Of a DNA stretch of 64,000 nt, positions 34,670 to 39,800 are shown in pieces. Numbering within the stretch: the stretch's first letter is position 1; each line of letters starts with the position of its first letter. Location of the stretch: positions 1,116,001 through 1,180,000 of the forward strand of contig NZ_PGFG01000001.1 in the NCBI RefSeq assembly GCF_002797735.1, read 5' to 3'. Made by a program: the position numbers and the translations under genes. The stretch is from Thermoflavifilum aggregans. Its GTDB lineage: Bacteria > Bacteroidota > Bacteroidia > Chitinophagales > Chitinophagaceae. Under the pieces are notes generated by a model. It was not told the DNA's origin and did not search any database. It saw only the letters and a list, made by a program, of their open reading frames with translations.

Positions 34670-35716
34670 TCAGGCTAGCATTTTTTCTTTCAGATAGGTA
34701 ATCAACCTGTTTCGCATATCCTGCAGCAGCTGTTCAATTTCGGCTTCGTGTTTTCCTTTGATGTGTGCAATTTCAGCAACGGCATAGCGTTCCAGATAAT
34801 GCATCTCAAATACGGATATTGCATAGCTATCCTGCTCCTGCAGCCATTGTTTCATGGTTTGTTCAGCTTCTTCGGTTTCAAACTGTTCAATTTCCTCATC
34901 TGATAATCCTGCATCCATCAGAATTTCATCCCAGGCATATTGTTTCATTTGATAGGAAACATCATCCAGGTTTTCCACCAGTTCGGGCATTTCTTCCGCA
35001 TTAGCTGTGAGCTCTTCACTTTCAGCTGATTCTGCAGCCGGCATCCAATCGCGTTCCACACCAAATTCCTGTTTGTATCGTTCGCTGATTTCCTGCAGTT
35101 TTTGATCTGCTATTTCATAAACCCACAAATTCAGCTTTTCCGGAGCTTCTTCCAGTTGCCCGTATGCATCGTAGATGCTGATGTACAGATCGTTCAGGAT
35201 ATCATTTATTTTGAGTTTATTTTCTTTGATCAACATCCTCAAAAGAGGTTTGCGAAATGCTTCGCGCATGATATGTTGCCTTAGATCAGGTAAAATGTGG
35301 TCCAGATAATGGATGAAGTTTTCCGCATCGCTTTCTTGGTGAAGCTGGCTAAGAATTTGTCTGCCTTGCTGAGTACGTTGTTCGAGTTGTTGTTTTCTTT
35401 TGAATAAATAATCTTTTCGCTCCACCTGCTTTTGTTCACGCACAGCTTTGCGCAGCGTATCCAAAGCGTTGTTCACAGCCATGACGGCCGATGTACCACG
35501 TTCCTTTACCAGCAGTACTTTGGAAAGCATGGGTAAAGTAAGCGTAATCACATATTCTGCACCTTCCTTTTTGATGTGCACGGTAAGCGTTGGAAGTTTG
35601 GGATATTCTTTTAAAATGCGTTCAATGCGTTTTAATTTTTTGCGGATTTCTTCTTCAAAAAATGTTTGCTGATGTTCTGGTTGAATGATATGCAGGTTTT
35701 GAATAAGGTATTTCAT
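34670..35716 (-). CDS. HPF/RaiA ribosome-hibernation domain fused to sigma-70-like domains
   Basis: The 348-residue protein opens with an HPF/RaiA-like beta-alpha-beta-beta-beta-alpha domain (about 1-95; MKYLIQNLHI, LTVHIKKEGAEYVITLTLP, AVNNALDTLRKAVREQK). A segment at about 133-215 resembles sigma-70 region 2 (INDILNDLYISIYDAYGQL, LNLWVYEIADQKLQEI). A long acidic linker (about 225-285) follows, then a region 4-like helix-turn-helix (about 285-345; VFEMHYLERYAVAEIA). Known HPF proteins protect or dimerise idle ribosomes. Here the second half suggests RNA-polymerase or promoter contact instead of the usual dimerisation domain. It is the last gene of the stress operon, 11 nt after thioredoxin. 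The sigma-like parts are inferred by pattern only. Confidence 0.75.
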   Translation of the reverse strand: MKYLIQNLHIIQPEHQQTFFEEEIRKKLKRIERILKEYPKLPTLTVHIKKEGAEYVITLTLPMLSKVLLVKERGTSAVMAVNNALDTLRKAVREQKQVERKDYLFKRKQQLEQRTQQGRQILSQLHQESDAENFIHYLDHILPDLRQHIMREAFRKPLLRMLIKENKLKINDILNDLYISIYDAYGQLEEAPEKLNLWVYEIADQKLQEISERYKQEFGVERDWMPAAESAESEELTANAEEMPELVENLDDVSYQMKQYAWDEILMDAGLSDEEIEQFETEEAEQTMKQWLQEQDSYAISVFEMHYLERYAVAEIAHIKGKHEAEIEQLLQDMRNRLITYLKEKMLA

Positions 35717-35727
35717 GGCTTATCGTT

Positions 35728-36036
35728 TTAGGATTGTACGGATGAAAATTGCAACAATTGATTCAGCAGCGTTTGCCGGTCAATCATGCCGGTATGACGC
35801 CATTTGATTTGTCCCTTCTGAAAAATAATGAATGTAGGGATAGCCTGAATCTGATATTGCATGGCTATTTGCTGATTTTTATCAACATTGATTTTAATAA
35901 CCCGTGCTTTACCCTGCACTTGCCGGGCAACATCCTGTATAATAGGATGCATGGCCTTGCAGGGCCCGCACCAGTCGGCATAAAAATCAACCAGTATCGG
36001 CTGTTCGGATTGTATCAGTTGATGAAACGGTTCCAT
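35728..36036 (-). CDS. Thioredoxin
   Basis: A 102-residue cytoplasmic thioredoxin with the classical active site DWCGPCK (WCGPC) and cis-Pro in IQAIPTFIIF. It reduces disulfides or supports a peroxidase or chaperone. It is the fifth gene of the Hsp20-J-protein-FtsH-thioredoxin-HPF cluster (36 nt after ftsH, 11 nt before the HPF fusion gene), which makes a role in heat or oxidative stress more likely than general housekeeping. Confidence 0.93.
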   Translation of the reverse strand: MEPFHQLIQSEQPILVDFYADWCGPCKAMHPIIQDVARQVQGKARVIKINVDKNQQIAMQYQIQAIPTFIIFQKGQIKWRHTGMIDRQTLLNQLLQFSSVQS

Positions 36037-36072: not shown

Positions 36073-37974
36073 TTAATGTTGTATGGTTGCGGGAGTTGCT
36101 GATAAGATGGCTACGATTTCATCGCGGTTAAGCACTTCTTTTTCGAGCAATGCTTGCGCCAGCTGATCGAGCAGCTCCCGTTTTTCGGTTAATAATTGTT
36201 TGGTTTCTGCATAACATTGAGCTATGATCTGATAGGTTTCTTCATCAATTTGTTGTTCCAGTTTTTCGGAACGCCGGTCGGTGTACAGATCATTTTTCAG
36301 GAATCCCGGTCCGCTTTGTGTGACCAGCGAAAGGTTGGGCAGTTTATCACTCATGCCATAAACGGTAATCATGCTGCGGGCCAGTTGCATAACGCGTTCC
36401 AGATCGTTGGAAGCGCCGGTAGAAATTTCGTTGAATACAATTTCTTCAGCAGCGCGACCGCCAAGCAATCCTTTTATTTTGCCCAACAGTTCAGATTTCG
36501 TCATCAGGTAACGATCTTCCAGTGGCATTTGCAGGGTATAGCCCAACGCACCTACGCCCCGCGGCACAATGGAAACCTTTTGTACCTGATCGGCTCCCGG
36601 TGTAAAATATCCTACGATGGCATGGCCTGCTTCGTGGTAGGCAACGATTTGTTTTTCTCTGGGACTGATGATGCGGCTTTTGCGTTCCAGCCCGGCAATA
36701 ACCCGTTCAATAGCGGCTTCAAAATCGCTTTGCATCACAGCTTCATGGCCATTGCGCACGGCAATAATGGCGGCTTCGTTGCATACATTGGCTATTTCTG
36801 CGCCGGCAAATCCGGGTGTTTGGGCCGCCAGCTGTTTCAGGTTTACGGAAGGATGCAGTTTCAATTTTCGGGTGTGAACAGCGAAAATGGCTTCCCTGCC
36901 TTTCATATCTGGTCTGTCGACCACTACCTGCCGATCAAAACGGCCAGGCCTTAGCAGGGCAGGATCGAGCACCTGGGGGCGGTTGGTGGCACCAAAGATA
37001 ATTAGTCCGCTGGTGGGGTCAAAGCCATCCATTTCCACCAGCAATTGGTTCAGCGTATTTTCCCGTTCATCGTAGCCACCCATGAAGGCGGTGTTGCCTG
37101 AGCGGCTTTTGCCAATAGCATCCAGCTCATCAATGAAGATGATACAGGGAGCTTTTTCCTTGGCCTGGCGAAACAGGTCGCGCACCCGCGCAGCGCCTAC
37201 GCCCACAAACATTTCCACGAAATCTGACCCACTGATGTTGAAGAAAGGTACCCCGGCTTCGCCTGCTACAGCCTTTGCCAGCAATGTTTTGCCCGTACCG
37301 GGAGGGCCTACCAGCAAAACTCCCTTGGGAAGCTTGCCTCCCAGCCGGGTATATTTCTGCGGATTGCGAAGAAAATCAACCACCTCCTTTACTTCTTCCA
37401 CGGCTTCGTCAATACCTGCTACATCACTGAAACGAACGGGATTTTGCTGATTTTCATCGTGGATCTTCAGCTTCCCATCACCCACCTGCAGGAAGTTATT
37501 TTTGGGAAACATGCGCCGGAACAGAAATCCGTAAAGGGCTACAAAAAACACAATCGGTAAAATCCAGTTCAGGAAAAAATTGCGCAGGGCGTGGTCTTCT
37601 ATTTTCCCGGAATAATCCACGCCATGATCATCCAACATTTGCAGCAGAGAACGGTCGTCCACATCAGGGATGCGATTCACTACAAATTGCCGGTTTACTT
37701 CATCTTCCACTTCCTGCAGCCGGATGCGCCAGGGTGCGGATGGACTGTTTTCAATGGAATGACGGGTGGAATCAGGAGTTTTGAATAAACCTACAATTTT
37801 ATCAGGAAAAATGACCACGCGCTCCACCAGGCCGGAATCTACCTTGTGTTTGAATTCTGTATAGCTGAGCTGATGCGTTGCATAACGCTGCGGGAAAAAC
37901 AGCCATTGCTGCAGCAACATACCAGCCAGCAGGCTGATGAAGTACCAAAGTGTAAATTTTTGATTTTTTTCCAT
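36073..37974 (-). CDS. ftsH: ATP-dependent zinc metalloprotease FtsH
   Basis: A membrane AAA+ protease of 633 residues that degrades misfolded membrane and regulatory proteins. Two transmembrane segments (about 9-27 and 134-152) flank a periplasmic domain. The AAA module has Walker A GPPGTGKT (223-230), Walker [12 protein letters not shown] (about 278-288) and the second region of homology [20 protein letters not shown]. The zinc site HEAGH (447-451) and the third ligand in SNDLERV are present. Embedded between a small unknown gene and thioredoxin, it is probably a stress-specific paralogue. Whether another ftsH exists elsewhere in the genome cannot be seen here. Confidence 0.96.
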
Positions 37975-37985
37975 GGTTATACATT

Positions 37986-38345
37986 TTATGCATATCGAAT
38001 CCAGTGCAGCACAACTCTGGCTGCACGCGGGTTTTGCACGGGAAGCCGGCTGATGAGCAGATGAAACGCTTCTCTGGACATAAGCCAGCTGCGCACCAGC
38101 TGCCCGGCTTCATCTACATATACAGCATGCAGGTGTTGCTCGGGTTGCTCTCCGGCCAGGTGGAGAATGCGCCGGATCAGCGGAATCAGCTGTTCCACTT
38201 CGTCGGGCATGCATAGCTGCAGGCGCTTAAGCCAGTAGCTGAAATACGCCCGCCTTGCCCAGCTGTTTAATTCCATCTGGTATTCCAGCATGCGTTCCCA
38301 TTCGTGGGGATAATGGTCATAGAGCACAGGAAACCTGTTTTCCAT
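37986..38345 (-). CDS. Small protein of unknown function in the stress operon
   Basis: I do not recognise this 119-residue protein. It is rich in Arg, Trp, Leu and Glu, has no signal peptide or membrane segment, and appears mostly helical (HEWERMLEYQMELNSWARRAYFSYWL, MPDEVEQLIPLIRRILHLA). It starts 2 nt after the J-protein gene and ends 11 nt before ftsH, so it is translated from the same mRNA. By position it resembles CbpM, the J-protein modulator often encoded next to CbpA, but the sequence does not look like CbpM. A co-chaperone or protease adaptor role is only a guess from context. Confidence 0.65.
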   Translation of the reverse strand: MENRFPVLYDHYPHEWERMLEYQMELNSWARRAYFSYWLKRLQLCMPDEVEQLIPLIRRILHLAGEQPEQHLHAVYVDEAGQLVRSWLMSREAFHLLISRLPVQNPRAARVVLHWIRYA

Positions 38346-38347
38346 AG

Positions 38348-39283
38348 TTACACTGTTGTACGTTCAAATGTTTTTTTCAATTGTTCAACAGCGCGGCGCT
38401 GTTCTTCCGTAAGTTTTGAAGGCAGCCACAGATGTACTTCCACCAGCATATCGCCGTATTGGCCGGGTTGATTGTACACGGGCATCCCTTTGCCTTTGAT
38501 GCGCAGGATAGAACCATGCGAAGTGCCGGCCGGTATGGTCAGCAAAATTTTGCCTGAAGGAGTGGCCACTTCTTTTTTGCAACCCAGCAAGGCATCCCAG
38601 AACGGGATGGTAATCACCTGCTTCAGATCGTTGCCGTTGCGGATGAATTGATGATGAGGCAACACATGCAGGGTGATGTACAAATCTCCGGCAGGTCCTC
38701 CGCCTACGCCAGGCTGGCCTTTGCCTGTAATGCGGATCTGCATCCCGTCGTAAACACCCGGCTTCAGCTTGATGCGCATTTTCTGGCCATTTACTTCAAT
38801 GAGACGTTCGGTGCCATGATAAGCCTCATCAAAGCTTAACGTCATGCTAGCCTGCAAATCAGCTCCCCTGGCTGATCCTGCGCGCGTGCGGGCACGGCTG
38901 CCCGTGCCGCGCCGTTGCCCGAAAAGATGCTCGAAAATGCTGCCCAGTCCGGCATCACCGAAAATGTCTTCAATATCTCCTTCGTAATAAAAAGTTTGTC
39001 CACCTCCCGGGCTACCCCAGCTATAAGTCTTTCCTTGCTGACCGGCAAACTGATCTGCATATTGCCATTGATCGCCAAACTGGTCATATTTTTTTCGTTT
39101 CTCCGGATCGCTCAGCACTTCATACGCTTCGTTAATCTCCTTGAATTTTTCTTCTGCTTCCTTATTTCCCGGGTTTTTATCCGGATGATATTTGATGGCC
39201 AGCTTGCGATAAGCCTTTTTGATTTCATCCTCAGTTGCCGATCGCGATACACCCAAAATTGAGTAATAATCTTTTTTAGCCAC
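38348..39283 (-). CDS. CbpA-type J-domain co-chaperone
   Basis: A class B J-protein of 311 residues that stimulates DnaK and binds unfolded clients. The J domain (about 1-70; [20 protein letters not shown]) contains the essential HPD in [12 protein letters not shown] short Gly/Phe-rich stretch (about 75-140) and two C-terminal substrate-binding domains follow, and there is no CxxCxGxG zinc finger, which separates it from DnaJ and matches CbpA. The start codon is GTG. A hairpin terminator lies between it and the upstream hsp20 gene, so it may be transcribed by partial read-through. It is followed by a small unknown gene (2-nt gap). Confidence 0.93.
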
Positions 39284-39365: not shown

Positions 39366-39800
39366 TTATTCAACCGAAATTTCTTTGGGGGCTTGTTTTA
39401 CGGCGATTTCCTTTTTCGGGAGTTCGAGCTTCAGCACACCATCTTCATAAGATGCCTTGATTTTGTCGGCATCCACGCTATCCGGCAAGGTAAACGAACG
39501 GCTGAAGGAAGTGAAATTGAATTCCCGCCGGGTAACTTTTCTGTGCTTTTCTTCTTTTTCTTCCTTTTTCTCAGCGGAAATGGTAAGTACATCACCATCT
39601 ACGCTGATTTTGAAATCTGATTTCTTTAAACCCGGCGCAGCCAGTTCCAGTTCATAGCTGGTGTTGGTTTCATGAATGTTTACTGCCGGAACGCGTGTAC
39701 CGGTTTGCACGCCCCGAAACCAATCATCGCCGAAAAACTCATCGAGCAATTGAGAAAAGCTCGGAAATACTTCAGATTCGTTCCATTTAATCAGTGACAT
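39366..39800 (-). CDS. Hsp20/alpha-crystallin small heat-shock protein
   Basis: A 144-residue ATP-independent holdase. The alpha-crystallin domain (about 45-135) includes the A-x-x-x-n-GvL-like motif in ASYEDGVLKLELPKKE and the strand region DFKISVDGDVLTISAEKK. The short N-terminal arm (SEVFPSFSQLLDEFFGDDWF) is typical. It heads the stress cluster and is separated from the J-protein gene by a strong terminator, so it can be expressed alone. No TAnnTTTG promoter is visible upstream, unlike at most housekeeping genes in the window. Confidence 0.95.
   Translation of the reverse strand: MSLIKWNESEVFPSFSQLLDEFFGDDWFRGVQTGTRVPAVNIHETNTSYELELAAPGLKKSDFKISVDGDVLTISAEKKEEKEEKHRKVTRREFNFTSFSRSFTLPDSVDADKIKASYEDGVLKLELPKKEIAVKQAPKEISVE

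Follow-up and report, generated by a model that had tools for sequence, protein, structure and literature searches.

The gene at 34670..35716 (-) of the window (the whole stretch of 64,000 nucleotides from Thermoflavifilum aggregans that was analysed) is confirmed, by sequence comparison and structural modelling, as a true fusion of an HPF/RaiA-like and an ECF-sigma-like protein; its function is what we infer from these data. Profile comparisons and a predicted structure show that its 348-aa product consists of a divergent HPF/RaiA-like domain, which a single long helix joins to a full ECF-type module of sigma2, linker and sigma4. As judged from aligned sequences and models, the sigma-like module has retained its fold but not a basic promoter-facing surface. 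We put at about even the chance that the protein is a two-part stress factor, in which a sigma mimic that does not bind promoters is attached to a ribosome-binding HPF.

Architecture and predicted structure of the fusion protein

The open reading frame starts with ATG and is a single unbroken frame over exactly 34670-35716 (-). Across the whole gene dN/dS is approximately 0.11 in comparison with the nearest species, indicating purifying selection, and fusions are found in 13 genomes including its own, so that an assembly artefact is unlikely. The protein begins with the HPF/RaiA-like domain (residues 1-98; 35423..35716 (-)), which has the order beta-alpha-beta-beta-beta-alpha and was recognised with VIA-align against 4hei and with hhalign; residues 1-108 carry a net charge of +10. 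The C-terminal helix of this domain continues through residues 99-130 (35327..35422 (-)), as seen in alignments and in a helix modelled at 77-127, and holds the basic motif ERKDYLFKRK, a tail which in the alignments also terminates the HPFs of genomes where the two halves are split. The sigma2-like domain (residues 131-218; 35063..35326 (-)), supported by TIGR02937, the model, VIA-align and its charges, is followed by an acidic linker (residues 219-261; 34934..35062 (-)) and by the sigma4-like domain (residues 262-348; 34673..34933 (-)), which was identified through profile matches to PDB sequences, the model, VIA-align and charges. The linker contains ENLDDVSY, the window protein's version of a motif shared with its relatives, which in the family reads EELDDISY.

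Taken alone, the window protein is matched at scores under the curated cutoffs: by Pfam S30AE at residues 20-97 (E 1e-3; 20.2 bits, gathering cutoff 23.7), by Sigma70_r4_2 (E 0.016), and by the NCBIfam sigma70-ECF model TIGR02937 at residues 160-341 (E 2.5e-5; 24 bits, curated cutoff 42.9). Two fusions among 21 genomes do exceed the S30AE gathering score, a G296 copy at 25.0 and a G052 copy at 23.8, the latter together with its frame neighbours. Long HPFs have a C-terminal dimerisation domain, and an earlier note on this DNA had remarked that it was missing here; PF16321, the Pfam model of that domain, is indeed absent from the window protein up to E 10. No receiver domain is found among the Pfam matches of the window protein and the aligned members. 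One further match, to DUF4825 (E 0.0029, residues 204-259), covers the last part of sigma2 together with the disordered linker; it was rejected as chance.

Comparison of profiles gave significant results for both halves. A profile of eight members of the fusion family (A1), used against solved structures, retrieved 39 sequences at E <= 1, and all 17 of those at E < 0.02 are sigma factors (e.g. FliA and SigW) or HPFs. A broader alignment retrieved 71 sequences, with sigma factors and HPFs on top; the unrelated chains in that search were a CAP-repeat chain at E 2e-4, no single stretch of which reached significance, and angiotensin-converting enzyme from 0.009. The ECF sigma factors of the same genome served as a comparison set: 23 sigma matches gave 18 loci, from 16 of which the longest open reading frame was used, the longer L184 and L185 being left out. 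With hhalign, the second half aligns to these 16 ECFs over 170 columns (probability 98.6, E 5.7e-16) and the first half to canonical HPFs (probability 90.6, E 1.3e-6), whereas the controls fail, with probabilities of 0.7 and 0.5 for swapped halves and at most 0.3 for five column shuffles of the sigma half. The earlier note's proposal of an HPF domain joined to sigma-like domains, made from the sequence alone, is thereby borne out. A wider alignment (A4) joins 48 proteins from the loci of the linker-pattern scan described below to the window protein, giving 49 rows (11 fusions and 38 standalones), and leaves out truncated, broken and many similar sequences. All 49 match the NCBIfam sigma70-ECF model at E <= 0.01 (best 3.9e-21), and Pfam places Sigma70_r4_2 in 34, Sigma70_r4 in 14, Sigma70_r2 in five and S30AE in four.

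The AlphaFold2 model of the window protein, built with 49 aligned sequences, has a mean pLDDT of 88.1 and a pTM of 0.81. It has an HPF-type fold at about residues 1-98, the one helix at 77-127, sigma2 at 131-218 and sigma4 at 262-347, which matches the domain limits given in the earlier note. Disorder is predicted for residues 228-257 of the linker (pLDDT below 50), an acidic linker whose motif is conserved in the family. In VIA-align, where the absence of a family from the lists is no evidence against it, residues 1-99 of the model align with the Vibrio cholerae HPF 4hei over 92 of 92 residues (Z 14.0, rmsd 1.9), and residues 116-345 with SigW as found in the RsiW complex (Z 11.4, 157 residues, rmsd 4.0), with CnrH (Z 11.1, 152 residues, rmsd 3.8) and with RpoE from a NepR complex (Z 10.7, 153 residues, rmsd 3.9). 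Foldseek gave E values that are modest (HPF 7.6e-4, SigW 5.3e-3) at a probability of 1.00 each. The second half thus aligns with ECF sigma factors in structure also, and has the complete sigma2-linker-sigma4 module in common with the ECF sigma70 family (TIGR02937).

A coincidental similarity between helical proteins might be read from the single-sequence matches, which lie under curated cutoffs. The hhalign result with its negative controls, the match of the ECF model to every aligned member and the structure comparison all argue against it; we consider coincidence ruled out, its probability being negligible.

DNA-facing and polymerase-facing surfaces of the sigma-like module

The earlier note had supposed that the protein could link ribosome inactivation to promoter choice. 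As written, this is unsupported, as region 2.3-2.4 and the recognition helix of region 4.2 are acidic or neutral on balance across the family. The mean net charge of region 2.3-2.4 is +3.6 (0 to 6) in the 16 ECFs and -3.8 (-7 to 3) in the 49 family members (p 5e-9), and that of the recognition helix is +2.3 (1 to 4) and -0.3 (-4 to 3) respectively (p 8e-7), both p values ignoring relatedness among the rows. The linker differs in the same direction, with a mean charge of -14.8 in the family (n=49) compared to -3.6 in the own-genome ECFs (n=16); it is also longer than in ECFs, besides carrying the EELDDISY-type motif. The shift is mild in the window protein, in which region 2.3-2.4 (-1, without most of the basic residues) and the recognition helix (-2) both lie just beyond the ECF ranges and the linker stands at -18. 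Some family members are still positive at the recognition helix or at region 2.3-2.4.

The shift can be followed at single columns, which we take, from established knowledge of sigma factors, to face DNA or the polymerase clamp. At residue 204 (column 106) 10 of the 16 ECFs have K or R, and 39 of the 49 members have D or E; at residue 326 (column 234) D or E is found in 38/49 members and in none of the 16 ECFs, 11 of which have T. Other positions are kept. In helix 2.2 the column of residue 172 (column 75) has D or E in 44/49 members and 15/16 ECFs, although the pair at columns 78-79 changes from mostly Q-[DE] in ECFs to mostly D-[QE] in the family. The aromatic residue of region 2.3 (column 100) is W in 34 and F in five of the 49, and Y or W in all 16 ECFs.

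A genuine ECF sigma factor under HPF control, held on or released from ribosomes in stress and directing a stress regulon from unusual promoters, would explain why the full sigma2-sigma4 fold is present, why ECF-profile significance extends across the module, and why the helix 2.2 acid and the region 2.3 aromatic are retained. Against it stand the charge shift at both DNA-facing surfaces and column 107, where N (10 of 16 ECFs) gives way to E (27 of 49 members), with N absent among the family residues listed. We therefore expect, from the charge shift of the DNA-contact regions, a sigma mimic rather than a promoter-binding sigma, and regard a genuine sigma factor as rather unlikely.

Fused, split and standalone members and their gene neighbourhoods

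A search with the single protein found relatives in seven of 59 near genomes, its own included. Over 396 genomes of the order, profile A1 matched 350 at E <= 1e-3, among the matches listed nearly all via the sigma4 part and in open reading frames of ordinary ECF size; matches spanning both halves occur in 10 of the 396. Together with G003, G004 and L060, this makes 17 fused proteins in 13 Bacteroidota genomes: one in each of the five genomes of the window's genus and in G213, G083, G288 and L060, and two each in G039, G059, G052 and G296. The copy in G004 is interrupted by a contig end. In two genomes, G267 and G397, the halves are separate genes on the same strand with one membrane-protein gene between them, which is DUF308 (HdeD-type) by Pfam in G267 and looks similar by eye in G397. 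The halves of G125 are on different contigs, where the HPF gene again has a membrane-protein gene of similar kind beside it, as well as one for YfdX. Genes for YfdX (L056:8051-9016, L051:6106-7068) and DUF308/HdeD (L041:6583-7170) adjoin fused or split members elsewhere too.

Residues 1-98 share their fold with HPF/RaiA proteins (YfiA, PF02482; short and long HPFs). A tree built from 37 HPF domains, based on a short alignment and with some long branches, sets 15 fused and three split domains apart from 19 canonical HPFs in the order by a branch with support of 98/98, and since they fall outside the canonical group we file the domain as HPF-like. Compared with canonical and long HPFs, the fusion has lost several basic positions in addition to having its own basic tail motif and no dimerisation domain: the window protein has E, V, T and Y where the canonical HPF of the same genome (G000:C1:2407707-2407988) has R, K, K and K, and ribosome binding by this half may therefore be altered or lost. 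By Pfam and a canonical-HPF profile, no canonical HPF was found in the fusion carriers G039 (98% complete), G059 (94%) and G083 (82%), the first two of which are of one genus, or in the standalone carrier G152 (72%). G071, from the family of G039, has no fusion and does carry a canonical HPF. The fusion may have taken over from HPF in this family; alternatively, the missing HPFs may reflect assembly gaps. Some genomes, namely G213 (L189, L204), G351 (L188, L205, L209) and G008 (L198, L203), have two or more S30AE genes in addition to fusions.

Most relatives with the linker motif lack the HPF part. A linker-pattern scan of one genome per species (GTDB), with a profile (A3) of rows sharing the linker motif, gave 126 confirmed relatives, of which 80 were kept, and 72 of these 80 loci encode a sigma-like protein without an HPF part, mostly of about 255 aa. 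Many of these standalone members are found in Maribacter, Zobellia, Arenibacter, Robiginitalea, Eudoraea and other Flavobacteriia, and a few in metagenome-assembled genomes labelled Desulfobulbaceae, Bacteroidales and Chlorobiota. The standalones in Desulfobulbaceae-labelled assemblies (L113, L114) could reflect horizontal transfer or a binning error. The flanks of the 72 standalone genes (up to 6 kb, often less) held no HPF gene by a profile mainly of fused and split HPFs, which may miss canonical ones; in G351 an S30AE gene lies about 6 kb from the standalone gene. The link to HPF is therefore not obligatory. In an even sample of the phylum at E <= 1e-20, 10 of 395 genomes have members, three with fusions and seven with standalones, and all seven belong to one family (f25). 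Conservation of the linker in the 80 loci is biased, because the scan selects for linker patterns. The seven phylum-sample standalones, found by A1 alone, keep the motif as [D/E/T]-E-[L/F]-[D/N]-D-[I/L/V]-S-Y, with the caveat that A1 includes motif-bearing rows and that L214 looks identical to the Zobellia protein of L101. Searches of plasmids with the window protein and one standalone gave no match.

In the window, the fusion is the last gene of a same-strand row in the order hsp20-dnaJ-orf119-ftsH-trx-fusion, with gaps of 82, 2, 11, 36 and 11 nt. The row starts with hsp20 (39366..39800 (-); PF00011, E 9.6e-27), followed by a gene for a DnaJ/CbpA-type chaperone (38348..39283 (-); PF01556, E 2.2e-42, and PF00226, E 4.9e-33), a 119-aa open reading frame (37986..38345 (-)), ftsH (36073..37974 (-); PF01434, E 1.8e-67) and, 11 nt upstream of the fusion, a thioredoxin gene (35728..36036 (-); PF00085, E 3.1e-28). 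Neither Pfam nor NCBIfam matches the 119-aa product at E <= 0.01, and it is weakly similar by BLASTP (E 0.002) to a DinD-like small protein found beside other members. Beyond the fusion are 79 nt and then a class-III aminotransferase gene. A like succession of hsp20, dnaJ, small open reading frame, ftsH and fusion is present in G003, and in G001 a thioredoxin gene and an FtsH-like frame come before the fusion.

Across the family, at least one of ten proteostasis and envelope families (Hsp20, DnaJ, the 120-aa DinD-like protein, thioredoxin, FtsH, ClpB, rhomboid, SDH protease, Na/H exchanger and YfdX) occurs at eight of 11 fusion loci compared to none of 19 control stretches, in counts whose queries came partly from the same loci and which include self matches. 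Three of the 11 fusion loci (L048, L053 and L055) are without stress neighbours; the second fusion paralogue of G039 and G059 (L053:7753-8823, L055:6264-7376) adjoins a gene which looks citrate-synthase-like by eye. Among the 72 standalone loci, Usp is found in 16, Dps in seven, BON in nine and two-component genes in approximately 30, the last also in two of the 19 control stretches. The 120-aa small protein is encoded at L054:7360-7728, where it is DinD-like (NF008573, E 1.7e-4), at L066:7023-7385 and in L067 and L069. Its gene comes 15-18 nt after two fusions and is also located downstream of many standalones; the window frame at 37986-38345 is perhaps of the same kind. A DinD-like protein of 268 aa is encoded at L044:3228-4034.

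These distributions bear on the idea that the sigma-like half is a structural stand-in for the C-terminal domain of long HPFs, for instance dimerising or scaffolding 100S ribosomes, and plays no part in transcription. Such a stand-in would fit with the missing PF16321 and with the fusion carriers of one family that have no other HPF. However, 38 of the 49 aligned members are sigma-like proteins without an HPF part, and many standalones adjoin stress genes on their own; we judge the idea quite unlikely.

Precedents and the proposed function

Several known proteins offer partial parallels. In PhyR, the promoter- and core-binding regions of a sigma-like domain are described as appearing degenerated, and the protein titrates NepR (PMC8103513); it is a precedent for a sigma fold that serves as bait rather than binding promoters (PMC8103513). 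By that description, the present family resembles PhyR in combining an ECF fold, degenerate in its promoter-binding regions, with another domain. It differs in that the partner is HPF-like instead of a receiver and the phylum is another one, PhyR belonging to the general stress response of Alphaproteobacteria. HelD has been described as a polymerase-parking factor (PMC11102965). A foreign module on an HPF domain also has a precedent in HibA, an HPF/RaiA-CBS fusion (PMC13324472), which is archaeal and has a CBS module as partner. The authors of that study used CD-search to look for domains fused to bacterial HPF/RaiA (PMC13324472), and as bacterial HPF fusions were sought they may have met the HPF-sigma fusion already; in the main text of their paper 'sigma' occurs only in a supplier's name (PMC13324472). 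For the gene row, the nearest parallel is tLST, a proteobacterial heat-resistance island whose genes are described as hsp20, clpK, yfdX, hdeD, trx, kefB, degP and others (PMC8290217). It shares Hsp20, FtsH, thioredoxin, YfdX and HdeD/DUF308 with the window row or with the fusion or split loci, but has a different gene order, is from another phylum and, as far as the text of the paper goes, contains no HPF or sigma-like gene; 'hibernation' and 'Bacteroid' occur 0 times in its main text (PMC8290217). In the titles and abstract starts of the open-licence literature searched, no description of an HPF-sigma fusion or of a pseudo-sigma hibernation factor was found. Both domains are of known kinds, and it is their joining, together with the pseudo-sigma family, that looks new.

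One way in which the sigma-like half could act is by titrating an anti-sigma factor only, as in a PhyR-type switch, with the HPF half as the input sensing, for example, ribosome occupancy rather than phosphorylation. The PhyR model NF006623 matches 27 of the 49 aligned members (best 8.9e-6). In the models the sigma2-sigma4 arrangement is closed: among the matches listed, polymerase-bound ECFs align with the window protein only at an rmsd near 26, and the model is therefore closed in the manner of anti-sigma complexes. The model of a standalone member from Zobellia uliginosa (L101; pLDDT 78.7, with linker residues 137-143 and 145-160 under 50) has among its top VIA-align matches RpoE-NepR 5uxx (Z 12.9, 153 residues, rmsd 3.5), SigW (Z 12.7) and PhyR_SL-NepR 2lfw (Z 10.4, 139 residues, rmsd 3.6). 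On the other hand, the closed arrangement may be a habit of the predictor, as AlphaFold may favour closed sigmas, and none of the six scanned neighbours in the window row has an anti-sigma match.

A possible binding partner of the standalone sigma-like proteins is a 135-aa protein of no Pfam or NCBIfam family. In the 80 loci searched its gene is held by 33, and in 28 of these, equal to 28 of the 72 standalone loci, it lies directly 3' of the standalone gene (e.g. L101:6779-7186; others among L058-L137), often overlapping it or within 30 nt. It is found at none of the 11 fusion loci, which counts against a PhyR-type switch in the fused protein. Reckoned as one version of the sigma-mimic reading, such a switch is unlikely.

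The preferred reading is thus a sigma mimic on a ribosome-binding HPF. Proteotoxic stress would induce the gene row as one transcript; the HPF half would bind idle ribosomes, and the sigma-like half would select no promoters and instead imitate a sigma factor towards a protein partner. If that partner were core RNA polymerase, a possible if somewhat improbable target, the module could exclude sigma or DNA and so park polymerase beside parked ribosomes. If it were an anti-sigma factor, which we think a less probable target, titration would proceed as PhyR titrates NepR. Core RNA polymerase is slightly favoured, because the first acid of helix 2.2 is kept and the acidic linker could occupy the nucleic-acid channel. 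In genomes with split halves, the two would act as individual proteins encoded by the same cluster. In its fullest form, which we propose tentatively and hold to be well short of an even chance, the protein would be a dual hibernation factor that parks both machines, the HPF half sitting in idle ribosomes and the sigma mimic, with its acidic linker, in core RNA polymerase, linking hibernation to the 'pseudo-sigma' stress proteins of Bacteroidota. The most economical reading is of one protein joining ribosomes to the transcription machinery through putative binding at both ends.

Ribosome hibernation and transcription shutdown are mostly treated as separate programmes. The covalent link between an HPF-like and a sigma-like domain, and the occurrence of the pair as neighbouring genes elsewhere, suggest that the two are coupled, physically or through regulation, in a way that is directly testable. 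The sigma-like family of Flavobacteriia and Saprospirales-type genomes may at present be annotated as ordinary sigma factors, and may belong to the general stress response of Bacteroidota.
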